A stretch of DNA of 64,000 bases from Mariprofundaceae bacterium (lineage in GTDB: Bacteria > Pseudomonadota > Zetaproteobacteria > Mariprofundales > Mariprofundaceae): positions 62,001 to 126,000 of the forward strand of contig JAJFLC010000013.1 in assembly GCA_021772895.1 (NCBI GenBank), given 5' to 3'. The position numbers were made by a program, and so were the translations under genes. Positions 15,434 to 32,082 of the stretch are shown here, one piece after another (the stretch's first letter is position 1; each line of letters begins with the position of its first letter). Under the pieces are notes generated by a model that did not search any database, was not told the DNA's origin, and saw only the letters and a list, made by a program, of their open reading frames with translations.

Positions 15434-16876
15434 TCAGGCCACCTCCCGGTCTATTTGAGATTTTAACAGCATGAATAAAATAACCAGCAAAACAGCTCCC
15501 ATGCTTAACAACCAAAAAAATGATTCAACAAGCGTATCACTAACACCCAACATAGCATGAGCAGCTTCAGTAACAGCTATTAACAGTAGTGATATCACCC
15601 CCGCTTGAAACAGTTTAGTCCATGGCATAATAATTTCAAAAGTTCTAGAAAGCAGCATATGGCTTGAGATCACCCCTATAAAACCAGCCATCGCCAAAGC
15701 CATTCCCACACCATGAGCCGCCCAATCAGAAATAAACAGGAAAACAAACAATGGAGCCGCTATTGCGCTAAAAACATTGGGAACAATAAGCTTCTTTGTA
15801 TCCATACCGGCATGAGCCACCAGCGCATAAGTTCCCACTGTTACCCGGGCAGCTTCGGCTAATGCTCCCCATACAATATATTGAGCAGCCGGAGCAAACT
15901 TTTCATCAAGCAATACACGTGCTAACTCATCAGAAACAGAAATAATAATCGCAATGGTCACCAGTAGACTGGCCAACATTGCTGATGCATATTCATGCCA
16001 TGACAGAGCTTGTTCATGCCTGTCCTCGGAAGAGGTTCGCTTATAAAATGTCGGTATAAAATAAGTGCCGATCACTGACTCGAAGACACCAATAAGCGAT
16101 GCACTGACACCATAACCCACTACAAATAGACCCAGCGCTTCCAGACCGATCACATCCTGAACAAGAAAGCGATAGGACTGACTTTGTACCCAGATTAACA
16201 GAACAGAAATGGCAAGTGGCCAGATAAATGCAAGCACAGTAAATACTTTAGCTGAAGTAACTAGCAATTCTTCGGAGCTGCTATTTTGTTTTTTGTGATC
16301 CTTCGTAAAACGAAAGAAAAGTAAACTGCCGACAATGGCTAGCATACCCTGCCCTATCAATTGTCCACCTTGCCATAACACGGCCTCTGGCTTAAACCAG
16401 GTCACAAGCAGCACTGATGCGATCAGACTAATAATCACTGTTCCCAACGTCAGAACTACAAACCATCCTCTGTATCCCAATAGGTTCAGCGAAGGAATAT
16501 AAGTCTGGTTTAGTGTTGCAAAGATAATGGCGCAAAAAACAAGAGCGACCACCCAGAATAATGGCATTCCGGGAACGGCTACATAATAGGTGTTCGAGGC
16601 ATAAAGCAAGAAAGCTGAAAACAGACCAACGCCACTCAGATAAATCGAATAATAGATCATATACCGGTCAATTTTTCCATTCTCTACCCAAGAGTGAAGA
16701 CGCCTATTAATGAACATCCCCAAAGGATTAACCATGGCTAACACAAAAAAAGAGGTTACTGCCAGAAGAAGCGACCAACGGCCCATCTCCTCAGGGGTAA
16801 GAAGGGATGTGATGATACGTAGAGCAAGCAGAGCCAACGCTGCCTGTGCAATGCGACCAAAAAAAATCAATCCCAT
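15434..16876 (-). CDS. wzx: Wzx-type polysaccharide flippase (MOP superfamily)
   Basis: 480 residues with 12-14 hydrophobic helices and few charged loops. The N-terminal FFGRIAQAALALLALRIITSLL helix pair followed by TPEEMGRW is typical of polysaccharide_synt/Wzx proteins, which move undecaprenyl-diphosphate repeat units to the periplasm. Its ATG overlaps the last base of colD. It works with the Wzy-like protein at 10223-11620. The chain-length regulator and the Wza-type exporter are not in this window. Confidence 0.85.
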   Translation of the reverse strand: MGLIFFGRIAQAALALLALRIITSLLTPEEMGRWSLLLAVTSFFVLAMVNPLGMFINRRLHSWVENGKIDRYMIYYSIYLSGVGLFSAFLLYASNTYYVAVPGMPLFWVVALVFCAIIFATLNQTYIPSLNLLGYRGWFVVLTLGTVIISLIASVLLVTWFKPEAVLWQGGQLIGQGMLAIVGSLLFFRFTKDHKKQNSSSEELLVTSAKVFTVLAFIWPLAISVLLIWVQSQSYRFLVQDVIGLEALGLFVVGYGVSASLIGVFESVIGTYFIPTFYKRTSSEDRHEQALSWHEYASAMLASLLVTIAIIISVSDELARVLLDEKFAPAAQYIVWGALAEAARVTVGTYALVAHAGMDTKKLIVPNVFSAIAAPLFVFLFISDWAAHGVGMALAMAGFIGVISSHMLLSRTFEIIMPWTKLFQAGVISLLLIAVTEAAHAMLGVSDTLVESFFWLLSMGAVLLVILFMLLKSQIDREVA

Positions 16877-18063
16877 CAGAGACTATTTAATTGAACGGAC
16901 TCAAGCACTTGATGTAAGTAATTAATTTTTGAACGGATATCAAAATGATGGTTGCCGACAAATAATCCATAATCATGAACCGCCTGCGAATTGAGGTGTT
17001 TACCAACCACTCGATGGTTCAGATGTTTAATTACATCATTGACCAGAAAGTTTCCCGTCACAACAGGGCGCACATCAATATTAGCTGCATTAAGTGCTTG
17101 CACAACTCTGCTTCTATCGACTCTCGAATCCGGGCGTATGACCAACGAAAAACCAAACCATGAGCTGATACCCGATTCCCGCTGAATAATAAAGCGCTCA
17201 TCACCGGAAAACCGTTCAACAAAATGAACGGCATTTTCCTGTCGTTTTTCAATGAACCCATCCAGTTTTTTCAACTGCTCCAGACCAACGGCTCCTGACA
17301 TCTCAACTGGTCGGAAATTATAACCGGGCAATACAAAACGGAATGATTCATAAAATAAATCGGCATTTTTCTCACACACCAGATTTTCCTGAGGAAGATG
17401 GCGTGTCCAGCCATGTGAGCGCATAGATAACATTATATGATACATTTCTTCATCATCGGTAAGGATCATCCCACCTTCCATCGTAGCCATATGGTGGGAA
17501 AAAAAAGTACTGAATGTTCCGCATATACCAAATGTCCCTGTAGGCTTGCCTTTCCAAGTCGCCCCCATGGATTCGCAGTTATCCTCAATAAGATAAAGAT
17601 CATATTTATCACAAAAGGACTGGATGGCATCCAGATCGGCCGCATTTCCTAATATATGCGGCACAAAAACAGCACGTGTTTTTTCTGACACCCCATTCTC
17701 AAGCTGCGTAACATCCAGGTTCAAGGTCTCCAAATCAATATCGACAAATACCAATTTCATGCCGCATTGATGGATCGGATAATAAGTTGTAGACCAGGAT
17801 AGGGAGGGAACGATAATCTCATCACCGGGCTGAAAGGGCTTCTCCTTCTTGTATAACATTGCATTAATGGCAAGCAGGTTGGCTGACGAGCCGGAGTTCA
17901 CCATGATTCCGAAGCGGCTACCAAACTTTTTGGCAAACTCGCGCTCAAATGTTGCTACAGACTGTCCCATTGTATACTGGTCACGAGCAATCACACTCTC
18001 AATCGCACGAATTTCCTCTTCGCCCCATGATGATGCAGCTAATTCATAATGCATATTCGTCAT
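16876..18063 (-). CDS. colD: GDP-4-keto-6-deoxy-D-mannose 3-dehydratase (ColD-like)
   Basis: About 395 residues, DegT/DnrJ aminotransferase fold. The PLP lysine is replaced by His in TFFSHHMATMEGG, which converts the family from transaminase to 3-dehydratase, as in ColD. Other ColD-like blocks are VPSLSWSTTYYP, LLIEDNCESMGAT-type, SHGWTRHLP and FVLPGYN, in the same order as the E. coli O55 enzyme from memory. Start ATG at 18063 (another ATG is 9 bp on); a start at 18081 would overlap colC and lacks a ribosome site. Product: GDP-4-keto-3,6-dideoxymannose, for the adjacent ColC. Substrate comes from Gmd (29202-30284). Confidence 0.88.
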   Translation of the reverse strand: MTNMHYELAASSWGEEEIRAIESVIARDQYTMGQSVATFEREFAKKFGSRFGIMVNSGSSANLLAINAMLYKKEKPFQPGDEIIVPSLSWSTTYYPIHQCGMKLVFVDIDLETLNLDVTQLENGVSEKTRAVFVPHILGNAADLDAIQSFCDKYDLYLIEDNCESMGATWKGKPTGTFGICGTFSTFFSHHMATMEGGMILTDDEEMYHIMLSMRSHGWTRHLPQENLVCEKNADLFYESFRFVLPGYNFRPVEMSGAVGLEQLKKLDGFIEKRQENAVHFVERFSGDERFIIQRESGISSWFGFSLVIRPDSRVDRSRVVQALNAANIDVRPVVTGNFLVNDVIKHLNHRVVGKHLNSQAVHDYGLFVGNHHFDIRSKINYLHQVLESVQLNSL

Positions 18064-18070
18064 CTTACGT

Positions 18071-18994
18071 TTATTCCCCATTCCTAGATTCCAAAAAATA
18101 GAAGTATGTCATTCTCATACCTGCCTCAAGTGTTGTTTTTGCTTTCCAGCCCAAAGCCTCAGCTCCAGACACATCCATGAGTTTACGGCGCATTCCAGCA
18201 GGCTTAGACAGATCATGAACAAACCCCACTTCACAGCCGACAACCTCGGCTCCAATGCGGTAATAATCATTCACCGAGTAATCATAACCAAGGCCTACGT
18301 TAACCATACCAGGAAACTCCTCGATCCGCTCCATCGCGAGCACTAGAAAGTCCACCAGATCATCAACATACATAAACTCCCTGCGTGATTCCCCATCGCC
18401 CCAGATACCCACCTCAAGAGCACCAATATTCTTGGCTTCATGCAGCTTTCTAATCACAGCTGGAACCATATGTGAGCGTTCAACATCAAAGTGATCATAC
18501 CTGCCATACAGATTACAGGGAATAACGGTTTTATACATTAAGCCCTTGGTTCTGTTGATATATTCACACAATTTTGCAGCAGAAATCTTTGCCAATGCAT
18601 ATCCTTCATTGGTTGGCTCCAACTCTCCAGTCAACATATCAGATTCCCGTAGGATATCACGACCCCTTGGATACATGCAGGAGCTTCCCAGATTGACCAG
18701 CCTCTTCACCCCTGCATTCATTGCCTCAAGAATCACATGGGTGTTCATTAGCAGGTTATCAGCAAGAAACTCGACAGGTTCATTGATGTTCGCCTGAATC
18801 CCCCCCACCTTGGCAGCAAGATGAAATACGAAATCAGGCTTAGAATTCGCCATGTATGCCGCAACAGCCTGCTGATCCAAAAGGTCCAGTTCGTTCCTTC
18901 CTGGAGTTATAAGGTCAATGCTCTGATCAACAGCCAACCTTTCAGCTAGATTTCTTCCGAGCATACCGTTGGATCCAGTAACTAGTATCTTCAT
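18071..18994 (-). CDS. colC: GDP-L-colitose synthase / GDP-L-fucose synthase-like epimerase-reductase
   Basis: 307-residue extended SDR. The NAD(P) loop is GSNGMLG (7-13), AAKVGG and the NLGSSCMYPRG block near residue 110 are the GDP-fucose synthase (Fcl) signature, and YALAK near 140 is the catalytic YxxxK. Fcl and ColC are homologous. I favour ColC because the next gene is ColD, whose product ColC epimerises at C-5 and reduces at C-4 to GDP-L-colitose. If ColD were inactive it would act as Fcl. Confidence 0.8.
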   Translation of the reverse strand: MKILVTGSNGMLGRNLAERLAVDQSIDLITPGRNELDLLDQQAVAAYMANSKPDFVFHLAAKVGGIQANINEPVEFLADNLLMNTHVILEAMNAGVKRLVNLGSSCMYPRGRDILRESDMLTGELEPTNEGYALAKISAAKLCEYINRTKGLMYKTVIPCNLYGRYDHFDVERSHMVPAVIRKLHEAKNIGALEVGIWGDGESRREFMYVDDLVDFLVLAMERIEEFPGMVNVGLGYDYSVNDYYRIGAEVVGCEVGFVHDLSKPAGMRRKLMDVSGAEALGWKAKTTLEAGMRMTYFYFLESRNGE

Positions 18995-19045: not shown

Positions 19046-19972
19046 CTAGCCCTGAAATTGAATTTGACTGGCATGTTTTTCCGAATGCAGGAAAAAGAAG
19101 TTGGTCTCTACCGTCTCGTCTGTCATTTTAGCTAATTCTTTTAATGTGGAGCCTTCTGCATAGAAACAACGATATCCAAGTAATGAAAAGAGATCGATGA
19201 TTTCATTCGGATGATAGTTAAACTTCGCAGACCACTTCCGTAGCATTTCAGCAAACACAATGGGTTTATCTCTCTGTAGCGTCTCCACCGCCCCTTGAAA
19301 TGCAAATAACTCAGCGCCCTCAACATCACATTTAATGAAATCGATATGTAGTTCATTGGCATTTACAAAGTTATCCAGCCGTTCTACGTGACAGGTGATT
19401 AACTCTGCGTCTGTCCGTTCACTCAGGTTTTCTGAAGAAGCATTACCACTCCCTTCCGGATAAAAATAGAACGTCAAATCCTTACGTTCATTGGACAACC
19501 CAAATGGATGAGTAACAATATTGGTTAGCTGATTCAGCTTAATGTTCTGCTCTAGATGAGAGTAGGTTTTAGGAATAGGTTCAAATGCGTGTATCTGGCT
19601 GACTTTACAATAACGCGCAATAAGAAGCGAATACCAACCCATATTAGCGCCAATATCGAATACAACCCCCTGCTCTGGAACAAGCTTCAAGATCATCTTT
19701 GTATCTTTTTCCTCGTACCCTAGAAAGTTAAGCGATTCAATCGGTGCAACACGGTGGTCCCCTTCCGGGCAAAGCATGCGAACGCCATATCTTTTTGATG
19801 TCATGATGACTTTACCATCACGAATCTCTATTGATTCAACATCAGTTTGTGCCAGGTATTTTGCATACTCAAACAATTGAGCATGACGAAGCCGGTACAT
19901 TTCCTGAATGTATTCCGGTTTGTTCAACGCACCAGAAAGATGCTGATCACGTATTTTTTGTAATGATGTCAT
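19046..19972 (-). CDS. FkbM family methyltransferase
   Basis: 308 residues. FDIGANMGWYSL near residue 112 is SAM motif I, HAFEPIPKTY near 136 is motif II, and DFIKCDVEGAE near 210 is the FkbM acidic segment. FkbM domains O-methylate sugars and other hydroxyls. It starts inside the end of the SDR gene upstream (ATGA, 19969-19972) and is soluble. Its place between the branched-sugar genes and the colitose genes gives no sure target. Confidence 0.82.
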   Translation of the reverse strand: MTSLQKIRDQHLSGALNKPEYIQEMYRLRHAQLFEYAKYLAQTDVESIEIRDGKVIMTSKRYGVRMLCPEGDHRVAPIESLNFLGYEEKDTKMILKLVPEQGVVFDIGANMGWYSLLIARYCKVSQIHAFEPIPKTYSHLEQNIKLNQLTNIVTHPFGLSNERKDLTFYFYPEGSGNASSENLSERTDAELITCHVERLDNFVNANELHIDFIKCDVEGAELFAFQGAVETLQRDKPIVFAEMLRKWSAKFNYHPNEIIDLFSLLGYRCFYAEGSTLKELAKMTDETVETNFFFLHSEKHASQIQFQG

Positions 19973-21036
19973 ATTGAGTAACTCTCTATTGTTCGCTTAA
20001 ATCCATCTGCCAAACTTGTTCTGGGTTTCCATCCGAGAGAACTTATCCGGGATATATCCGGGCAATTTCTTGTAATTGGACTTTGCAGATATCCTTGACT
20101 TGCCTGATGATTTTCCTTGATTATGGCAAGCCTTTTTTCGGGAAAAAGGCTAACAAGAAGATTCGCCAAATCCATAATACTAGTCTCTGCCTGACTATTC
20201 CCTACATTATAAGAAACACCGCTCTCCCCATTTAAGAGAACTGTAAAGAATCCAGCCGTTGCATCTGCCAGATAACAAAAAGCTCTTGATGCAGTGCCCG
20301 CGCTTCTTACTACGATGGAACGATTCTCGACAACGTCTCTAACAAAGTCCGCATAAACACGACCATCATCAAGTTTCATGCCAGGACCATAAGTATGGAA
20401 CGGGCGCACGATCTTAGTTGGAACCTGATACTGTGCGTGCCAAGATACGCACATATTTTCAGCCATACGTTTGCTTTCAGCATAACACGAGCGAATTGAT
20501 GTTGGGTCAATATATCCATAATCCGATTCTTTTGTCGGAATATTCTGTGTTTCACCGTAGACCTCTCCACTGCTAAAATACATAAATGAAATCACCGGGT
20601 GATTACGCGCCAACTCCAATAATTGCATTGTACCCAACACATTTGCCGAAAGAGTTCCCACAGGATCAATGCCATAGAATTTTGGGCTCGCTTGGCTGGC
20701 CGCATGGATAATAAAATGATGCGGCAAAGCTAAGCTGATGGGTTTCGAAACATCCTGTACCAGCACCGTCAGATTTGGATTATCCAAGTGATTCGCAAAA
20801 CGTTTTGTATAATTTTCACGATTACGAACCAACGCAGTAATGTGAATATCAAGATCCCTTGTCCGGTTTAAATGGAGTAGCGTTTCAACAAGGTATGCAG
20901 GCAAAAAACCAGAGGCTCCCGTAATCAACACGCGTTTTCTGGCAAGCATGTTCCAGTCCACTGAAGTGACATTGGCAATCTCTTCAATATCTTCTGAAAC
21001 AATCCGATTAGTGACCAGAGAATGGGGGTTGCTCAT
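19969..21036 (-). CDS. NAD-dependent SDR of the branched-sugar module (first of two)
   Basis: 355 residues. About 34 N-terminal residues precede the Rossmann motif ITGASGFLPAY; SSGEVYGE near residue 160 and YAESK near 192 form the SDR catalytic site. FCYLADATAGF near 258 and YNVGN near 280 are typical of UDP/CDP-sugar epimerase/dehydratase relatives. It resembles the second SDR at 22912-23979 in length and layout. It follows the TPP enzyme by 7 bp. By analogy with YerF in yersiniose synthesis, one of the two SDRs may reduce the ketone left by the TPP enzyme. Confidence 0.72.
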   Translation of the reverse strand: MSNPHSLVTNRIVSEDIEEIANVTSVDWNMLARKRVLITGASGFLPAYLVETLLHLNRTRDLDIHITALVRNRENYTKRFANHLDNPNLTVLVQDVSKPISLALPHHFIIHAASQASPKFYGIDPVGTLSANVLGTMQLLELARNHPVISFMYFSSGEVYGETQNIPTKESDYGYIDPTSIRSCYAESKRMAENMCVSWHAQYQVPTKIVRPFHTYGPGMKLDDGRVYADFVRDVVENRSIVVRSAGTASRAFCYLADATAGFFTVLLNGESGVSYNVGNSQAETSIMDLANLLVSLFPEKRLAIIKENHQASQGYLQSPITRNCPDISRISSLGWKPRTSLADGFKRTIESYSI

Positions 21037-21043
21037 GAACGCA

Positions 21044-22915
21044 TTAATCCAGGGTACCTGTCTCTAAAGTATTCGATTTATCATGAAGCCCAATCAGCAT
21101 ATTCTCTCTCATCTCATCTCTTGATAATAATGGAGACAAGTCCTCGAGTGGCGGCGAAATAATTGAGCCATCTTTTTGCGCTACCAGAGAAAGTTTTGGT
21201 ACAAACGGCTGCTCTGGATGTGTAAACACCTCACAGATAACCGGCCCATTAATTGCTTGTACCTCAGGGATAATGGTTTCTGTATCTTCCCATGTCCGAA
21301 TTTGGAATGATGGAATATCGAAAGCATAGGCAACTTTTGAGAAGTCGGGACAAGTCACGCCTGATTTTCGATCTGAACCTGAATAGCGACCAGAAAACAG
21401 TGCCTTTTGAGTATGTTTAATCATCAAGTAACCATCATTGTTAAAAATTATAATCTTGATTGGAAGGTTATGATGCGCAATGGTTTGCAGCTCCTGCAAA
21501 TTCAGCATCATACCGCCATCACAATTCAGGCACATCACCTCTCGATTTGCGCCAATGGCAGCACCGATGGCTCCAGGTAAACCAAACCCCATCTCCCCCA
21601 GTCCCGTCGATGTCATCATTCTCTGCCCAGCTTTGAATTTAAGCACTTGGTGAGCCGATAGCAGTGCAGTACCCATATCGGTCACCACAATTTGATCGTC
21701 ATGAAAATATTGTTCCAGCGACTGCATAAAACGATAGGAGTTAATAAAGCTGACTTCTGATTCATCCTGCATATCAGCATGCTCTGGACCTACAACTGGA
21801 TAATGTTGACGGTAGCTTTCACATTGTTTTATCCAGTCAGGTCGGCAAAACGACTCCTTGGTATGGCTCAAGAGCTGCTCCATGAATTTACCAGCATCAC
21901 TCAGAATCGGGGCTTGAATTCGATCACCAAGTTTCAGTAACTCATTTGAGTCAATATCAACCATGGCCACCTGAGCCGCACGAGCGAACTCCGTCAGATC
22001 GTAGCCAACTTGAGGGATGGCTAAACGTGTCCCAATGCAAATAAGCGCATCGCAATTTTGCAGCACAAAATTAGCTGCTCGCTGTCCATAAACGCCAGCC
22101 CTACCAAAACACAATAGATGATCGGAATCCAGAATGTCACAGGCTTGCCAACTTACCAGAGTTGGAATACCCATGGTCTCAACAAATTCTTTTGCAAGAT
22201 GCTCAGAGCCCGCCAACCTGATTCCATTTCCCAACCAAAGAACTGGGCGTGTGGAGGAAGTAAGTATTTTCTGAACGGCACTTACCCCATCTTTACAATC
22301 AAGGGTGTTAGCCTGATTATCATCTAAATTAGCTTCCGCATTTTCCAAGCTCGATGCAGCAGGCTGTAATTCAGCCTCGTCAATCATCGCAGCTTGGATA
22401 TTCATAGGTATATCAATCCAGACCGGCCCCTGTCTTGGTGCACCTGCAATGGCATATGCCCGAGAAATCACATCAAGCACTTTCTCCGGTTCCATGATGC
22501 GATCAGTCCACTTGGTCACCTTCTCAACCATTTGAGTACTGTCGTATCCTTGCACGCCCCAAATTCGAAGTGGATTTTCTACAGATGTAAATCGAGAGTT
22601 TTCATTTCCGGAAATAACAAGAACAGGCATCGAGTCCATCCATGCGCTCACAACCCCGGTCACCCCATTTGAAGATCCCGCCCCTGTCGTCAGCAACACG
22701 ACAGAAACCTTTCCTGTCGTGCGATAATAGGTCGTAGCAGCCATAATTGCTGCCTGTTCATGATGAACACAGATGATTTCTGTAAAACCACGGCGAGTGA
22801 TTGCATCAAAAACTTGTGCATTTCCCGCACCAACAATTCCAAATACATGAAGTATCCCCTGATCTGCAAAGAAATCAGCGATAAAATCACATGCTTTTTT
22901 TTCCACCAAAATCAT
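21044..22915 (-). CDS. Thiamine-diphosphate enzyme, acetolactate synthase-like (YerE-type sugar carboligase candidate)
   Basis: 623 residues from ATG at 22915, which overlaps the preceding stop as ATGA and has AGGAAAGGGG just upstream. Three-domain acetolactate synthase architecture: the catalytic Glu in VHHEQAAIMAA (about residue 48), the central Rossmann-like domain, and the ThDP motif near residue 470 written CDGGMM...FNNDGY, with Cys in place of the usual first Gly. No biosynthetic ilvN small subunit is nearby. In yersiniose loci YerE of this family decarboxylates pyruvate and adds the C2 unit to C-4 of CDP-3,6-dideoxy-4-ketohexose. Here the next genes make a different 2-keto acid, so a C4 transfer is proposed. 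Confidence 0.75.
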   Translation of the reverse strand: MILVEKKACDFIADFFADQGILHVFGIVGAGNAQVFDAITRRGFTEIICVHHEQAAIMAATTYYRTTGKVSVVLLTTGAGSSNGVTGVVSAWMDSMPVLVISGNENSRFTSVENPLRIWGVQGYDSTQMVEKVTKWTDRIMEPEKVLDVISRAYAIAGAPRQGPVWIDIPMNIQAAMIDEAELQPAASSLENAEANLDDNQANTLDCKDGVSAVQKILTSSTRPVLWLGNGIRLAGSEHLAKEFVETMGIPTLVSWQACDILDSDHLLCFGRAGVYGQRAANFVLQNCDALICIGTRLAIPQVGYDLTEFARAAQVAMVDIDSNELLKLGDRIQAPILSDAGKFMEQLLSHTKESFCRPDWIKQCESYRQHYPVVGPEHADMQDESEVSFINSYRFMQSLEQYFHDDQIVVTDMGTALLSAHQVLKFKAGQRMMTSTGLGEMGFGLPGAIGAAIGANREVMCLNCDGGMMLNLQELQTIAHHNLPIKIIIFNNDGYLMIKHTQKALFSGRYSGSDRKSGVTCPDFSKVAYAFDIPSFQIRTWEDTETIIPEVQAINGPVICEVFTHPEQPFVPKLSLVAQKDGSIISPPLEDLSPLLSRDEMRENMLIGLHDKSNTLETGTLD

Positions 22916-23979
22916 CCCCTTTCCTGGCTGTTTTGCATCAGATGCCATTGTGCAGTTAATTTAATGGCCTCATCCAAGGATGTGAACGCGGACAGGCCAT
23001 ATTCATTTTGAGCGTGCGTTGTATCCGGTAACAGTTGAGCAGAGCGCCCAAGACTGCGTGGTGAGGTGTTAAACATAATCTCCGGGGATGGTTCAAAGTT
23101 TTGAGCCACAAGTTTAGCCAAATCCTGTAGGGAAGTACCAACTGGACTACCCACATTAACAACATCGCCACCCTGCCCTGCGGTCAATATTTTCAAAAAC
23201 CAATATGCTGCATCGCTGCCATAAAGATAACTTCTAACCACCTGTCCATCACCTAACACCCGAATGGCATGCCCCTGTAGTGCATCCGATAAAAATGTAG
23301 TTTGTGCCCACGGTGTTTCCAATGATTGATACGGCCCAACAAATGAAAACGGACGAGCTACCAGCACAGGAACACGGGATTGCGCACGTGCGGCAGAGCA
23401 AATTGTCTCTGCAAAACGCTTCGAATTGGCATAAACAAAGCTGGCATCGGGTGCCGCTGCCCCTTGAGCACTTTCAGCCAAGCCCATTTCTGAGGCAGGC
23501 TGAGGGCCACAAACCAAACCCGAACTAAGATAAAGTAGTTTCTTTAACCGCCCTAGACGCTCGGCAGTTCTCATCACCGACATGGTTCCATCAACAACCA
23601 CCGATGCTGTATCAAGAGGATTTGATGCATGCGTACGAATATCAGGGTTGGCCGCAGCATGAATTACCCAATCAGCATCCATGGGAAATTCGCCTAGTTG
23701 CCGGACATCAGATTTGATTAGATGAATGTCTTCCCGATTGGCTAAATGAGGCAATCGATTTGAAAACTGTTCGGTACTCCGCGAGATCAGGGATAGTTTG
23801 ATTCCGAATTGATATGCGTCATTGAGGGCTGTAACCATTTCAGCAATCCATGTCCCTACAAATCCGGTTCCACCAACAATAACCAACTCAGATTGACGCA
23901 ATGGATCTAGTTCTTTATCTCGACCATCCAAAATTCTCAGACAGTCATGACGTATTCTTTCTTGGCGTTTCACTTTCAT
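22912..23979 (-). CDS. NAD-dependent SDR of the branched-sugar module (second of two)
   Basis: 355 residues. About 30 residues precede the GGTGFVGTW loop; HAAANPDIR, LYLSSG near residue 148 and YANSK near 180 give the SDR catalytic set, and VVNVGSPVG near 270 is a sugar-binding block seen in epimerase/dehydratases. It overlaps both neighbours by 4 bp (TPP enzyme at its stop, aldolase at its start), so it is made in step with them. Its layout parallels the SDR at 19969-21036, perhaps from an old duplication. Likely a ketoreductase or epimerase on the CDP-branched sugar. Confidence 0.72.
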   Translation of the reverse strand: MKVKRQERIRHDCLRILDGRDKELDPLRQSELVIVGGTGFVGTWIAEMVTALNDAYQFGIKLSLISRSTEQFSNRLPHLANREDIHLIKSDVRQLGEFPMDADWVIHAAANPDIRTHASNPLDTASVVVDGTMSVMRTAERLGRLKKLLYLSSGLVCGPQPASEMGLAESAQGAAAPDASFVYANSKRFAETICSAARAQSRVPVLVARPFSFVGPYQSLETPWAQTTFLSDALQGHAIRVLGDGQVVRSYLYGSDAAYWFLKILTAGQGGDVVNVGSPVGTSLQDLAKLVAQNFEPSPEIMFNTSPRSLGRSAQLLPDTTHAQNEYGLSAFTSLDEAIKLTAQWHLMQNSQERG

Positions 23980-25007
23980 TTACCTCCTTTCGCAGCCTGT
24001 AGGGCGAGCTCTTTGGCAACTTCTAGGATCATGTCCTCTTGGCCCGCCACGATCTTGCACCGTCCAAGTTCAAAAAACAGATCGCGAGGATCAACATCAA
24101 ACTCCTTAGCAATGCGTGAAACTGGCCTCATAAAACCGGAAAACACCCCGGCCGTACCACTCACAACACTAACCGATGTTATCGATGGTATTTTTTGCAT
24201 AAGTATTTGTTCAGCAAGATCACCGGCATCTAGGATTTTGTATAAATCAATTCCTGTCCTGTATCCCAGCCGTTCTAGAACGGCAACAAGCACTTCCAGC
24301 TGGGTGTTCCCAGCGCCTGCACCAAATCCTCGCGCACAACCATCCAATAATGTTGCACCTGCTTCGGCGGCTGCAATTGAATTTGCTATAGCCAGTCCTA
24401 AGTTATTGTGTGCATGGAATCCAACAGCAATTGAAAGCTCACTTACAAGCAACTCTACTCGCTTGCGAACATCTTCAGGAAGAAAATGCCCTGAAGAATC
24501 CATAAAGACAACTCCCTCTGCACCATACGACTCCATCTTCCTGGCTTGCTCTAAAAGAAATACGGGTGAAATCATATGAGACATCATCAGGCAACCCCAG
24601 ACCTCCACACCCTGACCGCGAGAGAAACTAATATGTCGTTCGCAAATATCAGCTTCACTGCAATGTGCAGCAACTCTGACCACATCAACCCCCATCCCTA
24701 ATGCTGGCTTCAAATCCCTTTCGATTGTAGCAAAACCTGGAATGACGTGAATACCCAACTTAGACTTGGTAAGGTTTTTTCTCGCAACCTCTAAAGCAAT
24801 ACTATCCGGTGTTTTGGCTTCACCAACCAATAGTGAGGATGCGCCAAGACCATTTCCATGCCCAACTTCAACGATAGATACACCCGCAGCATCAGCAGCC
24901 CTGCAATATGCTGCAATTTGTTCAACGTCCAACTGATGGCCTACCGCATGGTTCCCATCTCGCAGTGTAGGGTCGCTGATAGAAATTGTGCAGTTACGCT
25001 CCATCAT
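23976..25007 (-). CDS. 4-hydroxy-2-oxovalerate aldolase-like (DmpG/MhpE family)
   Basis: 343 residues, HMGL-like TIM barrel. DPTLRDGNHAVGHQ at the start and VEVGHGNGLGASS near residue 47 are DmpG/BphI signatures, and GFHAHNNLGLA near 205 carries the metal-binding His pair. The C-terminal part is the DmpG communication domain that docks the acetaldehyde dehydrogenase. Known reaction: 4-hydroxy-2-oxopentanoate to and from pyruvate plus acetaldehyde. No aromatic meta-cleavage genes are present, so the synthetic direction in sugar formation is more likely. Start ATG at 25007 overlaps the partner's stop; a second ATG follows at 25004. Confidence 0.85.
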   Translation of the reverse strand: MMERNCTISISDPTLRDGNHAVGHQLDVEQIAAYCRAADAAGVSIVEVGHGNGLGASSLLVGEAKTPDSIALEVARKNLTKSKLGIHVIPGFATIERDLKPALGMGVDVVRVAAHCSEADICERHISFSRGQGVEVWGCLMMSHMISPVFLLEQARKMESYGAEGVVFMDSSGHFLPEDVRKRVELLVSELSIAVGFHAHNNLGLAIANSIAAAEAGATLLDGCARGFGAGAGNTQLEVLVAVLERLGYRTGIDLYKILDAGDLAEQILMQKIPSITSVSVVSGTAGVFSGFMRPVSRIAKEFDVDPRDLFFELGRCKIVAGQEDMILEVAKELALQAAKGGK

Positions 25008-25918
25008 TCCCCCGTCGATCCTTTACTATGAGCAAGACTTGCATATTCTTCAGCCATGGCAATCGCAGCACAGTTAATAATGTCCAAGTTACCTGCATAG
25101 GCTGGTAAATAATCACCCAGTCCACGAACCCTTGCAATCACCACAATACGATCATTTTCCACAATCGGCCCAAAAATAATTTCGTAACCAGGAACATATT
25201 TACGAACATTCTCAACCAGTGGTTCCAAAATCTCGACTAACTTGGGGATATTCGGGTTATTAACTTTTGCAAAAATGGTAGCCTGCATATCAATGCATGG
25301 TTCGGCAGGGTTTAAATTAAGTATGGCCTTGGTTCGGGTCGCACCTGAAAATTCTCTAAGCCCTTCCTCCGTTGTTTTTATGTACTCATCGAGATTTTGT
25401 CTGGTTGCTGGCCCGGCACTCCGTGAAGCAATGCTTGAAACAACCTCAATATAATCAACATCAGTCTGACTTTGGCCAATGGCATATGCCACCGGAATAG
25501 AGGCTTGTCCGCCACATGTCACCATGTTGACATTAAATTCTGCGAGAGAATCTTCCAAATTCACACTAGGTACACTCATCAATCCTATTTTCGCCGGAGT
25601 AAGATCGATAACTCGCTTGTTCAGTTTTTTAAAAACAGGGGCATGCTCAAGGTGGCTTTTGGCTGATGTTGCATCAAAAATCAATTCACAACAGTCTGGA
25701 TTCTGCACAATATAATTAATTCCGTCAGCCGAGACGGTAACGCCCAAAGAAAGTGCTTTAACCATACCTACAGAGGATAAATTTCTACCAATAAATGCTC
25801 CACATTCAAGTGATGGAGAACGTAAAATCTTGATTAAAAGATCCGTTCCAATATTTCCGCTCCCGATAATGGCTATCCTGAGTTTATTTTTTGGTTGAAC
25901 CACAGCCTTTCTGCTCAT
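25004..25918 (-). CDS. Acetaldehyde dehydrogenase (acetylating), DmpF/MhpF family
   Basis: 304 residues. The NAD loop IIGSGNIGTDL is near the N-terminus, and MVTCGGQASIP near residue 128 carries the catalytic Cys of the family. The usual partner is the DmpG-type aldolase, encoded next with a 4-bp overlap; the two proteins form a complex that channels acetaldehyde. In degradation it turns acetaldehyde into acetyl-CoA. In this operon, reduction of acetyl-CoA to acetaldehyde for aldol addition to pyruvate is proposed. It starts 6 bp after the rfbH stop. Confidence 0.88.
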   Translation of the reverse strand: MSRKAVVQPKNKLRIAIIGSGNIGTDLLIKILRSPSLECGAFIGRNLSSVGMVKALSLGVTVSADGINYIVQNPDCCELIFDATSAKSHLEHAPVFKKLNKRVIDLTPAKIGLMSVPSVNLEDSLAEFNVNMVTCGGQASIPVAYAIGQSQTDVDYIEVVSSIASRSAGPATRQNLDEYIKTTEEGLREFSGATRTKAILNLNPAEPCIDMQATIFAKVNNPNIPKLVEILEPLVENVRKYVPGYEIIFGPIVENDRIVVIARVRGLGDYLPAYAGNLDIINCAAIAMAEEYASLAHSKGSTGE

Positions 25919-25924
25919 CTTAAA

Positions 25925-27244
25925 TTAGCCATTCACATCAATAAATGTTTCGAGCTTCTCTACAACGTAGTCCAGCATTGATTCACTCAACCCCGGAAAA
26001 ACACCAAGCCAGAAGGTTTGGTTCATAATGCGGTCTGTATTGTTTAAATTATCGGAAATACGATAATTCAACCCTTGAAAATAAGGCTGTTTGGTGAGAT
26101 TTCCGGCAAACAACAAGCGCGTGCCAATTTTATTCTCATCCAGATAACGTAATAGTTCTACACGTGAGAATGGAGCATCTTCGCTGATCGTTATGGGAAA
26201 ACCGAACCATGACGGTTCACTGTTAGTCGTTGGCTCGGGCAGGATCAGGTACTTCTCCAGTGGCGCCAGCGCTTTTTTCAAGTGGGTGAAATTTTTCTTC
26301 CTGGCCTCTATAAAGCCTTCCAATCGGTCCATTTGAGCTAGTCCAACAGCTGCCTGCATATCACTGATTTTTAGATTGTAGCCAACATGCGAATAGATGT
26401 ACTTGTGATCATAACCTTCCGGCAAATCTCCCAATTTCCAGCAAAAACGTTTACCGCAGGTATCATCTTTACCGGGATCGCAAAAGCAGTCACGGCCCCA
26501 GTCACGCACCGATTCCAGAATCAACTTCAGCTTGCCGCTATTGGTAAACACAGCGCCACCCTCACCCATGGTGATATGATGCGCAGGGTAAAAGCTTAAT
26601 GTCGCAATATCACCAAAGGTACCAACCATCTTCCCATCATAGGTGGAGCCAAGGGCATCACAGCAGTCTTCAACCAGCCAGAGGTGGTGTTTATCTGCAA
26701 GCTCGCGGACTTTCTTTAAATCAAACGGATTGCCTAGCGTATGTGCAATCATAATGGCTTTAGTTTTGTCTGTAATGGCGGCTTCAATCTTGTCGGAATC
26801 GATATTATAGGTCGGAATATGCACATCAACGAATACCGGTACGCAACCATGCTGAATGATTGGATTCACTGTAGTTGGAAAACCAGCAGCCACAGCAATC
26901 ACTTCATCACCCGGTTTAAGTGTACGTTTACCGAGCCTTGGCGAAGTTAATGCCGAAAAAGCCAACAGATTAGCAGACGAACCAGAGTTAACAGTTAACA
27001 CATGTTTTACGCCGAGAAATTTCTTCAAATGTTTTTCAAAGGCGTCATTAAAGCGGCCAGTGGTAAGCCAAGCATCAAGACTGGCATCCACCATATACTG
27101 TACCTCTTTGGCACCGAGAAGCTTTCCGGAAACAGGCACATGCGATTCACCAGCAACAAACACCTTCGGGGCCAGGTCTTCTTCGGCATACTCAGCAACC
27201 AACTCTGATATTTTTTCTCTCAGGCCTTCCAATTTCTTACTCAT
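25925..27244 (-). CDS. rfbH: CDP-4-keto-6-deoxy-D-glucose 3-dehydrase (E1)
   Basis: 439 residues. The family's active-site His replacing the PLP lysine is in [11 protein letters not shown]. The [2Fe-2S] cysteines fit the E1 spacing C-X57-C-X1-C-X7-C exactly: the second Cys of EDCCDA, then CFC and the Cys of KDDTCG. It removes the C-3 hydroxyl of CDP-4-keto-6-deoxyglucose with PMP and an electron-donating E3 reductase (RfbI/AscD). No E3 gene is in the window, which is odd. Overlaps rfbG by 4 bp. Confidence 0.93.
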
Positions 27245-28371
27245 TGTCCATCCCTATTGACTGCCCAGAAGATGCCTGATCGGGCTGCTTTTTCACTATA
27301 TGCTCGGATTTGATCAATCGTCACTTCTCGCAAACTTTCTGTGCCACTTGACCAGGCCAGATACCACCCCACAGTCATATCAATGGCATCACCAACACTG
27401 TTAGCCGGATGCCACTCCAAAACATCATTTGCCTTGGTTATATCCAGCTTCAAGAATTTTGCCTCATGCACCCTATCTGCATCGGGATGCTCGCAAGAAT
27501 ATGAGCCGGAACCCCACTCCTTCACCACCATTGCAGCAATACCCGAAACTGGAACATTGCCGATGCTTCCCGGCCCGAAGTTCCACCCTTCTTCAAACTT
27601 TCCGGGTTCTTGATATTGCTTAGCTGCCAGCCAAAGATAACCGGAAAGCGGCTCCAAAACATGCTGCCAAGGTCGAATAGCATGCGGGTTACGGATATTG
27701 ATCGGCTCACATTTTTCCAATGCACGAATGCAATCAGGAATAATACGATCCAATGCCCAGTCACCACCACCAATCACATTACCTGCCCGTACCGAGGAAA
27801 GACTTACTCCATGTTCACTGATTCTGTCGGAATGGAAGAATGACTGGCGATAAGAGGATACCACTAGTTCACTGCAACCTTTGCTATTGCTATATGGATC
27901 ATACCCTCCCATCGGATCATTTTCCCGGTAGGCGTATACCCATTCACGATTCTCGTAGCATTTATCCGATGTGATTACCTGACATACTCGAACCGATGGC
28001 GTGTTACGCACTGCTTCCAGCAGGTTTACCGTCCCCATCACATTCGTTTCAAATGTTTCAGCGGGCTCATCATAAGAGAACCGAACCAATGGCTGAGCAG
28101 CCAAATGAAATACAATCTGCGGCTGCACCTTTCTCACATAAGTCTTCAGATTCTGCCTATCACGCACATCACCAATCTCATGGCCAGCCAAGACAAAGGC
28201 AACATCAGCGTCATCAAACAAGCTGGGATCAGTCGGCGCATCTAAGGCATAGCCATACACCTCAGCACCCAATTCTGAAAGCCATAGAGAGAGCCACGAC
28301 CCTTTAAATCCGGTGTGACCAGTAACCAACACCCGTTTTCCATGATACACATGATTAAACTGATGTTTCAT
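27241..28371 (-). CDS. rfbG: CDP-glucose 4,6-dehydratase
   Basis: 376 residues from ATG at 28371, preferred to a GTG at 28389 that would overlap rfbF; GGTG lies close upstream. [11 protein letters not shown] is the NAD loop characteristic of Rfb[10 protein letters not shown] near residue 125 and YSNSKGCSE near 155 form the catalytic site, and [11 protein letters not shown] near 190 is another family block. It converts CDP-glucose to CDP-4-keto-6-deoxyglucose for RfbH, which overlaps its stop. Confidence 0.93.
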
Positions 28372-28373
28372 AT

Positions 28374-29141
28374 TCACCACACCTTCCACGGAGCTTTAGC
28401 AGCTTGCCACAACTCTTCCAGATACGTTTTATCACGCAAGGTGTCCATCGGTTGCCAAAAACCGTGATGATGAAATGCCGATAGTTGCCCACCTTTCGCC
28501 AACATCTTTAGAGGCTCCTGCTCCCAGACACTTGTATCGCCACCAATCAAATCAAAAACCTTGGGAGAAAGTACAAAATAACCACCGTTAATCCACGCCC
28601 CATCCCCTTGAGGTTTCTCCTCAAAGGACTTGATCGTATTTTCCTGAATATTTAGTGCCCCAAAACGGCCAGGTGGTTGAACTGCTGTCAATGTTGCCAA
28701 CCCACCCTGATTCCTGTGAAACTGAACCAGCTCACCAATATCAACATCGGACACACCATCTCCATATGTGAAACAAAAATCTTCATCATCAAGATATGAC
28801 GTCACCCTTTTCAGACGCCCACCAGTCGAAGTATTCTCACCTGTGTCAATCAGCGTAACTTTCCACGGCTCTGCCTTTTTCCGGTGCACTTCCATCGAAT
28901 TCTCCTGCATATCAAACGTCACATCAGACATATGCAGAAAATAGTTGGCGAAATACTCTTTGATAACATAACCCTTATAGCCACAGCAGATAATGAAATC
29001 GTTAATATCGTAGGCAGAATAAGTTTTCATGATATGCCATAAGACTGGTCTGCCACCGATTTCAATCATTGGCTTTGGTTTTAGATAGGACTCTTCACTT
29101 ATACGAGTCCCAAGCCCACCTGCCAGAATAACTGCCTTCAT
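28374..29141 (-). CDS. rfbF: Glucose-1-phosphate cytidylyltransferase
   Basis: 255 residues. The nucleotidyltransferase signature is LAGGLGTRISEES with KPKPMIEIGGRP right after it; FTYGDGVSDV near residue 127 binds metal, and the protein ends with the usual MDTLRDKTYLEELW block. It makes CDP-glucose from CTP and glucose-1-phosphate, the entry to all CDP-3,6-dideoxyhexoses. It starts the rfbFGH trio. The 60 bp between it and gmd hold no clear signal. Confidence 0.93.
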   Translation of the reverse strand: MKAVILAGGLGTRISEESYLKPKPMIEIGGRPVLWHIMKTYSAYDINDFIICCGYKGYVIKEYFANYFLHMSDVTFDMQENSMEVHRKKAEPWKVTLIDTGENTSTGGRLKRVTSYLDDEDFCFTYGDGVSDVDIGELVQFHRNQGGLATLTAVQPPGRFGALNIQENTIKSFEEKPQGDGAWINGGYFVLSPKVFDLIGGDTSVWEQEPLKMLAKGGQLSAFHHHGFWQPMDTLRDKTYLEELWQAAKAPWKVW

Positions 29142-29201: not shown

Positions 29202-30284
29202 TTATTCACTCTTGGGGGAGCCCCTATAACCGTGCTTTTTCACTAGCACGTCTCTTTCAGCAGAAATAAGATCTTCCCGTATCATTTCACTAACCAATTC
29301 TTTAAAGCCAATTTTTGGCACCCATCCAAGTTTCTCTTTGGCTTTAGTTGGATCACCCAGAAGCGTCTCCACTTCCGCTGGCCTGAAATAACGAGGATCT
29401 ACGGCAACAATACAGTTACCGTCAGCATCAAATCCCTTTTCATCAACTCCTGAACCCTTCCAGATAATCGCTATCCCAATCTCTTTTGCAGCTGCATTGA
29501 CAAAATCGCGCACAGAATATTGCACCCCAGTCGCAATCACGAAATCGTCCGGCTCATCCTGTTGCAGCATCATCCACTGCATCTCCACATAATCTTTTGC
29601 ATGCCCCCAGTCACGCAACGCATTCATGTTTCCAAGATACAAACAATCTTGGAGGTTTAACTTAATTCTAGCCAATGCACGAGTTATCTTGCGAGTCACG
29701 AAAGTCTCTCCACGAAGAGGCGATTCATGGTTAAAGAGGATACCATTACAGGCATAAAGCCCATAAGACTCACGATAATTCACTGTAATCCAGTAAGCAT
29801 AAAGCTTTGCAACGCCGTAAGGAGAACGTGGATAAAATGCTGTTGTTTCTGTTTGGGGAGTCTCCCGAACCTCACCATACAACTCCGAAGTAGAAGCCTG
29901 ATAAAAGCGGGTCTTCTTCTCCAATCCAAGAATTCGAATCGCTTCAAGAATTCGCAGTGCTCCTATCGCATCTGAATCGGCAGTATATTCTGGCTCCTCG
30001 AATGATACAGCCACATGACTTTGTGCAGCCAAATTATAGATTTCATCTGGCTGTACCTGCTGAATAATCCGAATCAGACTGCTTGAATCAGTCATGTCTC
30101 CATAGTGCAAGACAAATCGTTGATCTAGATCATGCGGATCTCGGAAAAGATGATCAATACGGTCTGTATTAATCAGAGATGTGCGGCGTTTAATGCCATG
30201 AACTTCGTATCCTTTGTTCAAAAGGAACTCCGCCAGATATGCTCCATCCTGTCCTGTTACCCCTGTAATCAATGCTTTTTTCAT
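29202..30284 (-). CDS. gmd: GDP-mannose 4,6-dehydratase
   Basis: 360 residues. [15 protein letters not shown] and [17 protein letters not shown] at the N-terminus, QASTSELYG near residue 128, [10 protein letters not shown] near 157 and [16 protein letters not shown] near 184 are all Gmd hallmarks. Product: GDP-4-keto-6-deoxy-D-mannose, the shared precursor of GDP-fucose and GDP-colitose; ColD and ColC lie further down the operon. Its ATG overlaps the stop of the regulator (30281-30284). Confidence 0.96.
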
Positions 30285-30676
30285 GATTCTCTTTCCCTTC
30301 TTTCGGCTTTTCGCGTTACAGAATGATACTCATCCATTAAATTTTGTTGCTCTGCTTCAATTCTCAAATCCTCTATCTCTTTACGCAGACGATCATACTC
30401 TCTCACTTTAAACTGAAGAAAAGCCACTGTCATACGCGACTTCTCATCAATCCCATTCGGGGTAAGCAAGTAGGAATAAGCAAGTTTATTATCACTGTTG
30501 CGAAAATTATTTACTTTCAAACAGCCTTTCTCAACCAGAGCCTTCAAACAAAAATTTATTTTGCCAAGACTAACACCTAGACGCTGAGCCAACTCCCGCT
30601 GGGAAAGGCTAGGGTTAACATCCAGAGCTTTTAGCAATCCATAGCTAGTTGTATCGTCTTGGGGTGCGTTCATCAT
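30281..30676 (-). CDS. MarR-family EPS-associated transcriptional regulator, first gene of the operon
   Basis: About 131 residues: winged helix with [19 protein letters not shown] as the recognition helix-turn-helix (about 20-38), LVEKGCLKV and [18 protein letters not shown] as wing and family block, then a coiled coil of charged residues. It matches the MarR-type regulators found at the head of exopolysaccharide loci. Start ATG is 30676 or the adjacent ATG at 30673; an ORF to 30715 uses TTG that is part of a -35 box. No ribosome site precedes the ATG and the predicted transcript starts within a few bases of it, so translation may be leaderless. A perfect palindrome covers the start (see 30664-30686). 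Confidence 0.85.
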
Positions 30677-30686
30677 ATGAACGCAC
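30664..30686 (-). promoter_or_regulatory. Perfect 10-bp inverted repeat over the regulator start, putative autoregulatory operator
   Basis: GTGCGTTCAT, a CAT spacer, and ATGAACGCAC form a perfect dyad (10+3+10). It begins right after the predicted -10 box and includes the predicted transcription start and the ATG codons of the MarR-type regulator. MarR proteins bind such dyads as dimers and often repress their own operon. The binding is inferred. Confidence 0.6.
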
Positions 30687-30715
30687 ATACAACAGCTCCA
30701 AACCAACACTGTCAA
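30687..30715 (-). promoter_or_regulatory. Probable sigma-70 promoter of the polysaccharide operon
   Basis: Minus strand: TTGACA (30715-30710, perfect -35), 17-bp spacer, TTGTAT (30692-30687, partial -10). The predicted transcript start is about 30680-30677, within a few bases of the ATG of the regulator gene and inside the palindrome. It lies 77 bp after the tviB-like stop, so the operon has its own promoter. The -10 match is only moderate. Confidence 0.55.
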
Positions 30716-30792
30716 GATGACTATTTGATGCAGGACACTCTAAAGATCACTTTACGCTCTGGTGAATACCGAAGAACCTGCCTCAACAAGAA

Positions 30793-32082
30793 TCACATTC
30801 TCCAAATGTTTAGTTCATTGATGCCTTTGCCAGGCCTGTTAAATAAGGCTTTTACGTCCATAACGGGAGCACCAAACTTCACCATTAACTGCAAATCAAC
30901 CGCACCCATGCCAGTGAATTGCCTGTGCCCCACAGCTACAATAAGCGCATCGACGTTCCTAATCTGTTTAATCGGAGACAATGCAATCCCGTACTCGTGC
31001 TGCGCATCATCGCTATCAGCCACAGGATCATGCACCAGCACTTCTACGCCCAGAGATTCAAGTTCACGAATGCAATCAATAACCTTGGTGTTTCGGAGGT
31101 CCGCACAATCCTCTTTAAATGTCAGGCCCAATATTCCTACACGAGATCCTTTGATTTTCGCACCGACTCGAATCATTTCAACAATCGTCTGCTCTGCCAG
31201 CCAGCGCCCCATACCGTCATTGATCCGGCGCGCTGCCTTGATAATTTCAGGCCTGAATCCTGCGATTTCAGCACGATGACTCAGATAATATGGATCTACG
31301 CCGATACAGTGCCCACCGACCAGCCCCGGCTTGAATGGTAAAAAATTCCACTTTGAACCTGCGGCTTCCAGTACATCTTGCGTATCAATACCAAGTTTAT
31401 GAAAAATAAGTGCTAATTCATTAATGAGCGCAATATTGACATCCCGTTGTGTATTTTCGATCACCTTAGCCGCTTCAGCCACCTTGATAGTCGGCGCTCT
31501 GTGCACTCCCGCTTCAATGACCTGCTTATAGAGCCACGCGACTCTATCCAGAGTATCTTCGTCCTGACCCGAGACAATTTTCACAATGGTTTCAAGCCGA
31601 TGGACCTTATCGCCCGGATTCACACGCTCCGGTGAATAGCCTACTTTAAAATCCTTTCCACATATTAATCCCGACTCTTTTTCAAGAATCGGAACACAGA
31701 TTTCTTCTGTAACACCCGGATAAACTGTTGATTCAAATACAACGATGGCATCTTTTTTCATATGACATCCAACTACCTCAGCAGCCTTGATTACCGGCGA
31801 CAAATCAGGTTTATGTGTATTATCAACTGGTGTAGGAACTGCTACGATGATAAAATCTGCATGAGAAATATCCAATGGATCAGTTGTATAGCTTAACTGA
31901 TCAGCCAGCACAAAAAGCTCTTCCTCCATCTCTCCCGTTGGATCGTAACCCTCTTTGTATGCAGTGATTTTTTCGTCAATAACATCAAAGCCGATAGTCG
32001 GCATGACACGACCAAAGGCCAATGCCAAAGGCAGACCAACATATCCCATGCCTACAATTGCTACACTTTGATCATTCTTCAC
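30793..32082 (-). CDS. Nucleotide-sugar dehydrogenase, TviB/WbpO type (UDP-GalNAc/GlcNAc to uronic acid)
   Basis: 429 residues. GMGYVGLPLALAFG is the NAD loop, VAVPTPVD and FESTVYPGVTEE follow, and GGHCIGVDPYYL near residue 262 carries the catalytic Cys of UDP-sugar 6-dehydrogenases. The EAAKVIENTQRDVNIALINEL block and the length place it with TviB/WbpO (UDP-HexNAc) rather than Ugd (UDP-glucose). GTG start at 32082 overlaps the manC stop. It would supply a HexNAcA residue to the glycan. Exact substrate is not fixed. Confidence 0.85.
   Translation of the reverse strand: MKNDQSVAIVGMGYVGLPLALAFGRVMPTIGFDVIDEKITAYKEGYDPTGEMEEELFVLADQLSYTTDPLDISHADFIIVAVPTPVDNTHKPDLSPVIKAAEVVGCHMKKDAIVVFESTVYPGVTEEICVPILEKESGLICGKDFKVGYSPERVNPGDKVHRLETIVKIVSGQDEDTLDRVAWLYKQVIEAGVHRAPTIKVAEAAKVIENTQRDVNIALINELALIFHKLGIDTQDVLEAAGSKWNFLPFKPGLVGGHCIGVDPYYLSHRAEIAGFRPEIIKAARRINDGMGRWLAEQTIVEMIRVGAKIKGSRVGILGLTFKEDCADLRNTKVIDCIRELESLGVEVLVHDPVADSDDAQHEYGIALSPIKQIRNVDALIVAVGHRQFTGMGAVDLQLMVKFGAPVMDVKALFNRPGKGINELNIWRM

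Follow-up and report, generated by a model that had tools for sequence, protein, structure and literature searches.

A dmpFG-containing rfbFGH operon from a Mariprofundaceae bacterium with the predicted capacity to make an erwiniose-type branched sugar

The window examined here is a 64,000-nucleotide stretch, positions 62,001 to 126,000 of contig JAJFLC010000013.1, from the Mariprofundaceae bacterium assembly GCA_021772895.1, a genome of 2.45 Mb in 24 contigs. It holds an operon of eight genes in the order rfbF-rfbG-rfbH-dmpF-dmpG-SDR1-ThDP-SDR2, where SDR stands for short-chain dehydrogenase/reductase and ThDP for a thiamine diphosphate-dependent carboligase. All eight lie on the minus strand, with ends that overlap or nearly abut (Table 1). 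An earlier note, made from the letters of this DNA alone, had described this single-strand set and read it as a possible complete route to an erwiniose-type sugar; the coordinates and family models confirm the layout, and SDR2 falls just beyond the interval given there, 21044–29141. We propose that the operon very probably makes a C10 branched sugar of the erwiniose type for a surface polysaccharide, using a C4 donor derived from the dmpFG pair.

Eleven different window proteins were annotated with Pfam domains and with NCBIfam equivalog models, the cut-offs of which are exceeded by RfbF, RfbG, RfbH, DmpF and DmpG. The RfbH translation displays the cysteines of C-X-C-X7-C, which we take to be the RfbH cysteine motif. 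Apart from DmpF and DmpG, no aromatic-degradation family is matched by any of the eleven proteins, to which this search was confined within the genome; the absence of such genes alongside the operon, remarked on before, is borne out to that extent.

Table 1. Genes of the operon and its near neighbours, with positions in the window
Feature	Position	Strand	Basis
rfbF (ddhA), glucose-1-phosphate cytidylyltransferase, forming cytidine diphosphate (CDP)-glucose	28374..29141	-	TIGR02623, 478 bits vs cut-off 300
rfbG (ddhB), CDP-glucose 4,6-dehydratase	27241..28389	-	TIGR02622, 482 bits vs cut-off 278
rfbH (ddhC, E1), pyridoxal phosphate (PLP)/[2Fe-2S] C-3 dehydratase	25925..27244	-	NF011936, 761 bits vs cut-off 423
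dmpF-like acylating acetaldehyde dehydrogenase (predicted)	25004..25918	-	TIGR03215, 376 bits vs cut-off 282; phmmer match 7z3s, E 3e-82
dmpG-like aldolase (predicted)	23976..25007	-	TIGR03217, 386 bits vs cut-off 286
SDR1, extended SDR travelling with dmpFG	22912..23979	-	adjoins dmpG
JanthE-type ThDP carboligase (predicted)	21044..22948	-	59–60% identity to JanthE (8rph)
SDR2, candidate for reducing the new ketone at C-5	19969..21036	-	co-occurrence across 80 loci
FkbM-type methyltransferase, which may O-methylate the sugar or the polymer	19046..19972	-	PF05050
RfbH/ColD-like PLP enzyme, neighbouring (probably GDP-sugar) branch	16876..18081	-	NF011936, 287 bits, under cut-off 423

The ThDP enzyme matches 53 families and scores below the cut-off of all 25 listed, the best being acetolactate synthase TIGR00118 at 339 bits against 538; a plain acetolactate synthase identity was rejected on these scores. 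Its closest solved structure by phmmer is JanthE (8rph), at 792 bits, and the next matches reach at most 235 bits. The latter figure is that of 5ahk, entitled acetolactate synthase II, which we take to be a YerE. The earlier note had called for a comparison with YerE; in sequence the enzyme is clearly closer to JanthE, which is YerE-like, than to acetolactate synthases. The cofactor motif reads CDG instead of GDG in the window enzyme and in 79 of 80 related loci (alignment column), and the catalytic Glu is kept in the window enzyme and in 79 of the 80, the last having a gap. All five JanthE hot spots, V121, Y268, P293, Y297 and K567, are conserved in the window enzyme; these are positions of interest that were chosen from docking in an engineering study (PMC12188165). 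By sequence criteria, the window enzyme is a member of the JanthE group of YerE-like ThDP ketone carboligases, and ketone carboligation is its predicted reaction. A plasmid search with the window ThDP protein returned no match.

JanthE is a biocatalyst that accepts several 2-keto acids as donors, pyruvate included, and takes 4-hydroxy-2-oxovalerate with benzaldehyde; its physiological substrates were stated in 2025 as not yet identified (PMC12188165). The possibility that the ThDP enzyme would prove restricted to pyruvate, raised earlier as an objection, finds no support in these relatives: JanthE uses the hydroxylated acid, and ErwE, discussed below, refuses pyruvate.

Relatives of the window ThDP type were sought in one genome per species, and 80 of 95 loci were kept. 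Their titles come from Pseudomonadota, Bacteroidota, Verrucomicrobiota, Acidobacteriota, Gemmatimonadota, Omnitrophota and others; as many are metagenome-assembled genomes (MAGs), individual assignments could be mistaken. Of the 80 loci, 74 contain dmpF together with dmpG, so that the pair is anything but absent elsewhere, which had been named as a way for the proposal to fail. In 71 of these 74 loci, no more than 1.5 kb separates the ThDP gene from the nearer of the two, and in 68 SDR1 adjoins dmpG on the same strand at less than 400 bp. The full set rfbF, rfbG and rfbH is matched in 59 of the 80 loci, or 56 at stricter cut-offs. In Rugamonas rivuli (L044), the ThDP enzyme of which is 98.7% identical to JanthE, the order is rfbF, rfbG, rfbH, ThDP, dmpF, dmpG, SDR1, SDR2.

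Two further comparisons were made. The first is a control set of sixteen loci that carry non-CDG ThDP relatives (L104–L119); 12 of them have at least one rfbF, rfbG or rfbH match, and some are short or ended by a contig edge. Here dmpFG is found only in L106 and L119 and is absent from the other 14. Of the 78 genomes in the class of the window, only G000 and G065 encode a ThDP relative at E <= 1e-100, the G065 enzyme being 36% identical and of the GDG (non-CDG) type. The same two genomes carry a DmpG above cut-off, and the remaining 76 have no DmpG match better than about 1e-24. The dmpFG-ThDP association is not due to chance, as the frequency of the pair among the 80 loci and the coincidence of ThDP relative and DmpG in the same two class genomes both indicate.

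The active site of DmpG carries a distinctive signature. BphI makes or uses solely (4S)-4-hydroxy-2-oxopentanoate; stereocontrol is lost on Y290F or Y290S substitution, and the double mutants L87N/Y290F and L87W/Y290F handle the (4R) form only (PMC3962088). At the two stereo-determining positions, i.e., Leu87/Tyr290 of BphI and Leu88/Tyr291 of 1nvm, the window DmpG has His and Phe, and its alignment to 1nvm is gap-free at both. L119 and L138 share His/Phe, and so do all 73 of the DmpGs associated with this ThDP type that could be aligned; the truncated DmpG of L099 has no letter at these positions, hence 73 of 74. The corresponding pair is Leu/Tyr in three solved enzymes and in all 17 catabolic-type copies, which are the top-scoring TIGR03217 loci (L120–L136), a choice that favours typical catabolic copies. 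The Arg, Asp and three His residues that were checked are kept in the window DmpG and in linked and catabolic copies alike. At the aldehyde-length position (BphI Leu89), the linked DmpGs have Ile in 64 of 73 cases and Met in 9, bulky residues that therefore fit acetaldehyde.

Because the His/Phe pair resembles the (4R)-specific BphI double mutants, the DmpG product is predicted to be (4R)-4-hydroxy-2-oxopentanoate. The pair in sugar-linked DmpGs is, on a limited literature search, new here. In a DmpG tree, the sugar-linked copies group apart from 20 catabolic-type copies, with two copies from ThDP-less loci inside the group; the tree omits L137, L139 and L140 (duplicates) and L147–L149, and it has long branches and unsettled bootstrap values.

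A related cluster occurs in a species that makes the sugar in question. Erwiniose side chains are found in the exopolysaccharide of Pectobacterium atrosepticum (PMC8657720). Its enzyme ErwE is described as forming erwiniose by joining CDP-4-keto-3,6-dideoxyglucose with a hydroxy 2-keto acid; with a cyclic ketone as acceptor analogue, ErwE favours 4-hydroxy-2-oxo acids, 4-hydroxy-2-oxobutanoate and 4-hydroxy-2-oxohexanoate also being taken, and makes no use of pyruvate (PMC12247030). The ThDP step had thus been published when the earlier note stated that it knew of no worked-out enzymology for the route.

The contig of locus L119 (genome G241) matches P. atrosepticum plasmid CP036162.1 at 100% over the 15 kb compared. 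Its gene order is as follows: ferredoxin-type reductase (E3-like), rfbF, rfbG, rfbH, HpaI-like aldolase, ThDP, SDR3, dmpF, dmpG, SDR1, flippase, glycosyltransferase, where the functions of genes unmatched by window proteins were read from frames. The HpaI-like frame (L119:8320–9102), between rfbH and the ThDP gene, has no match (E <= 1e-10) in the 80 related loci. The ThDP gene of L119 is probably erwE. Among 25 genomes of the genus, 2 contain both this gene (at least 96% identity) and its DmpG and 22 contain neither; the remaining genome has just a ThDP homologue of 33% identity and lacks DmpG. The P. atrosepticum DmpG nests in a 15-row group, mostly of Oxalobacteraceae and Pseudomonas copies linked to CDG ThDP enzymes (100/93; bootstrap unsettled), and the P. 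atrosepticum ThDP enzyme is 34% identical to JanthE. From these likenesses, it seems that ThDP enzymes of two very dissimilar kinds share one donor cassette, and that of P. atrosepticum is probably ErwE.

The SDRs are of three kinds. SDR1 goes with dmpFG, also in P. atrosepticum (37% identity), and is given no role in the pathway here. SDR2 (at least 45% identity) is present in 29 of the 80 loci and SDR3 (at least 35%) in 20; none has both, and 31, some truncated, have neither. The exclusion gives a Fisher p of 2.7e-5, an indicative value, as related genomes are not independent. No SDR3 match exists in the window. Because they never occur together, and because SDR3 adjoins the ThDP gene in L030 and L050, which lack dmpFG, SDR2 and SDR3 appear to stand in for each other in reducing the new ketone, and may differ in stereochemistry.

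The proposed pathway would run as follows. RfbF, RfbG and RfbH, the last acting with a reductase, would yield CDP-3,6-dideoxy-4-ketohexose, the predicted acceptor. DmpF would reduce acetyl-CoA to acetaldehyde, which DmpG would join to pyruvate, giving 4-hydroxy-2-oxopentanoate, predicted to be (4R). The JanthE-type enzyme would decarboxylate this acid and attach the resulting C4 acyl group (+C4H8O2) at C-4 of the keto sugar, and SDR2, or less likely SDR1, would reduce the new ketone to C10H20O6. The atoms balance: C6H10O4 + C4H8O2 + H2 = C10H20O6 (236.126), which is the formula of erwiniose, and the carbon count put forward before is upheld. The mass gain is another matter. It had been given as +72 (C4H8O, 72.06), and 4-hydroxy-2-oxopentanoate minus CO2 is C4H8O2, or +88.05. 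Erwiniose, presumably 3,6,8-trideoxy-4-C-[(R)-1-hydroxyethyl]-D-gulo-octose, would by hand derivation from this name have R at C-7, the configuration that a (4R) donor would give. Observed are the gene content, the conserved linkage, the co-inheritance, the active-site signature and the rfbFGH-ThDP-dmpFG-SDR1 cluster of an erwiniose-making species; from these we infer the substrates, the direction, the stereochemistry, the reducing SDR and the final product.

Several observations weigh against the proposal or narrow it. Some concern linkage. Five of the 80 loci (L030, L050, L080, L088 and L090) have no dmpFG, and the contig of L077 ends within dmpF. L080 is a 4.3 kb contig, and that of L050 stops about 4.6 kb past the ThDP gene; the related MAG loci L088 and L090, with the ThDP gene at 10001, have rfbFGH and a CDG ThDP enzyme. 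In genome G111, the CDG ThDP gene (L103) stands alone on one contig, and rfbFGH, an E3-like gene, dmpFG, SDR1 and SDR3 are on another (L150). The rfbF/rfbG/rfbH set is incomplete in 21 of the 80 loci, mostly short contigs. Eleven have none of the three genes; L028 (12 kb) and L074 (21.8 kb) apart, these are about 10 kb or less, as are 11 of the 24 loci that fail the stricter cut-offs. L074 and L075 are both 21.8 kb long and carry the ThDP gene together with dmpFG, but rfbF and rfbG are missing from each; not every locus of this type, then, has the CDP acceptor.

Others concern the enzymes. JanthE uses pyruvate, as noted above. The window ThDP enzyme is only 31% identical to that of P. atrosepticum, which differs at all five JanthE hot spots; the two types may therefore hold the donor differently. 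The second SDR of the window belongs to another family than SDR3 and, together with the divergent ThDP enzyme, this means that the product need not be erwiniose and may be a stereoisomer. The D-gulo name of erwiniose used above did not appear in the literature searched. No E3-type RfbH reductase is present in the window, and the best hits in the genome, at 28% and 24%, both lack the ferredoxin part; a generic reductase could serve RfbH. As for DmpG, the BphI variants taken from PMC3962088 include none with His at position 87. The ThDP-linked L106, with a GDG-type enzyme, has His/Val. L143 has His/Phe, and L142 has His/Cys, each with dmpF and with no ThDP match in about 20 kb; the pair is Ile/Tyr in L141 and Phe/His in the distant L144–L146. 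The pairs of L106 and L141–L143 indicate that the His mark follows an anabolic-looking branch and not ThDP loci alone.

These points modify what had been claimed at the outset. To call the route complete was too strong, given that no E3 was found. The gene set expected in an erwiniose maker does occur in P. atrosepticum as rfbFGH-ThDP-dmpFG-SDR1, with SDR3 in place of SDR2 and a distant ThDP enzyme. A C10 branched sugar of the erwiniose type is supported; erwiniose itself is not guaranteed, as the second SDR differs from that of P. atrosepticum.

Another explanation is that the ThDP enzyme uses pyruvate in the manner of YerE, to make a C8 yersiniose-type sugar, and that DmpFG serves another purpose nearby. 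The in vitro use of pyruvate by JanthE speaks for it, as do the five loci that have the ThDP enzyme without dmpFG, where the hot-spot residues are much alike. It leaves unaccounted for, however, the presence of both dmp genes in nearly all related loci, their co-inheritance with the ThDP gene in two unrelated clades, and their absence from 14 of the 16 non-CDG loci, some of them short or contig-ended; moreover, ErwE, whose probable gene is linked to dmpFG, does not use pyruvate (PMC12247030). We regard this explanation as improbable.

Still more improbable is a different donor or acceptor, such as a longer acyl-CoA (e.g., propionyl-CoA, leading to 4-hydroxy-2-oxohexanoate) or a guanosine diphosphate (GDP)-keto sugar supplied by the gmd- and ColD-like genes. 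The donor range of ErwE, the gmd- and ColD-like genes that flank the operon, and the lack of rfbF and rfbG at L074 and L075 would fit such a scheme. Against it, DmpG has Ile or Met, neither of them small, at its chain-length position, and relatives of the window gmd (at least 50%) occur in 6 of the 80 loci and of the ColD-like gene (at least 45%) in none, compared with 59 for the three rfb genes together. Finally, that DmpFG is a module of aromatic catabolism, either a relic or still active, placed in a polysaccharide locus by chance, is scarcely credible and was rejected: both proteins do pass the catabolic family models, but His/Phe replaces Leu/Tyr in the active site, the sugar-linked DmpGs stand apart from the catabolic type in the tree (with the reservations given above), the annotated neighbours hold no further aromatic-degradation gene, and the linkage is kept in loci titled as many phyla.

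Returning to the dmpFG-dependent pathway, we offer a tentative extension, which we think somewhat more likely to be wrong than right. JanthE-type enzymes would work with dedicated DmpFG pairs switched to (4R) by the Leu-to-His and Tyr-to-Phe replacements. Loci with SDR2 (the window, L044) and with SDR3 (P. atrosepticum) would make different stereoisomers, the window sugar being an undescribed epimer of erwiniose, and the trait would be spread over many phyla.

The surroundings of the operon and a few related loci deserve comment. Genes resembling gmd, manC, fcl and ColD/RfbH flank the operon (window 16876–18994 and 29202–33506); the fcl- and ColD-like calls are family scores, and the gmd and manC calls are readings of translations. 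Their presence suggests that the polysaccharide also contains another deoxy sugar, one carried on GDP. The closest relatives of the window genes are in L049 and L023, a Gallionella MAG and an unclassified Proteobacteria MAG, with about 80% identity for ThDP and DmpG. These relatives outside the class, and the finding of only one (36%) ThDP relative in the other 77 class genomes, suggest horizontal transfer of window 19969–29141. In L088 and L090, two frames just upstream of the ThDP gene resemble split transketolase halves, judging from their first residues, and these loci may use another donor; split-gene transketolases that accept ketones are mentioned in PMC12247030. At L152:9830–11796 and L153:8988–10897, an aminotransferase-like frame comes after dmpF and dmpG, the residue at the Leu87 position being His, and there is no ThDP match. 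This arrangement suggests another anabolic use, perhaps for a 4-hydroxy amino acid.

If the pathway is as predicted, it names a natural donor candidate for the JanthE-type carboligases. Acetaldehyde dehydrogenase, DmpG and oxovalerate aldolase go unmentioned in the main text of PMC12188165 and in the review PMC12247030. The dmpFG linkage is likewise not described among the literature matches listed, a set that does not take in the primary papers on ErwE and JanthE or the survey of YerE-like enzymes. The DmpG data also suggest that a well-studied aldolase has naturally switched its stereochemistry at the two residues that engineers had altered. Moreover, a dmpFG pair bearing His/Phe, when close to rfbFGH and a CDG ThDP enzyme, may be used as a signature to predict C10 branched sugars, and the annotation 'acetaldehyde dehydrogenase / 4-hydroxy-2-oxovalerate aldolase' does not always mean aromatic degradation.

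Among known systems, the window pair is like the DmpFG and BphIJ pairs of meta-cleavage (1nvm; PMC3962088) in family, catalytic residues and gene pairing. It differs in that it is expected to run in the synthetic direction, in its His/Phe signature, and in having no aromatic genes among the annotated neighbours. The window ThDP enzyme shares with JanthE of Janthinobacterium sp. HH01 the sequence identity given in Table 1, the CDG motif and the five hot-spot residues, and the near-identical JanthE relative of L044 is accompanied by the operon genes of the window, SDR2 included. The yersiniose A enzyme YerE likewise carries out ThDP acyl transfer to CDP-3,6-dideoxy-4-ketoglucose; it differs in transferring a C2 unit from pyruvate (PMC12247030). 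The erwiniose pathway of P. atrosepticum resembles the window operon in having rfbFGH, ThDP, dmpF, dmpG and SDR1 in one cluster and a DmpG with His/Phe. The differences are that the window ThDP enzyme is, by its low identity, not an orthologue of the presumed ErwE, that SDR3 instead of SDR2 sits beside the ThDP gene of P. atrosepticum, and that the latter's cluster has an E3-like reductase and the extra HpaI-like aldolase frame. The window locus is a variant of the YerE/ErwE kind of pathway, and the core of the earlier note's proposal is well supported by the comparative evidence.

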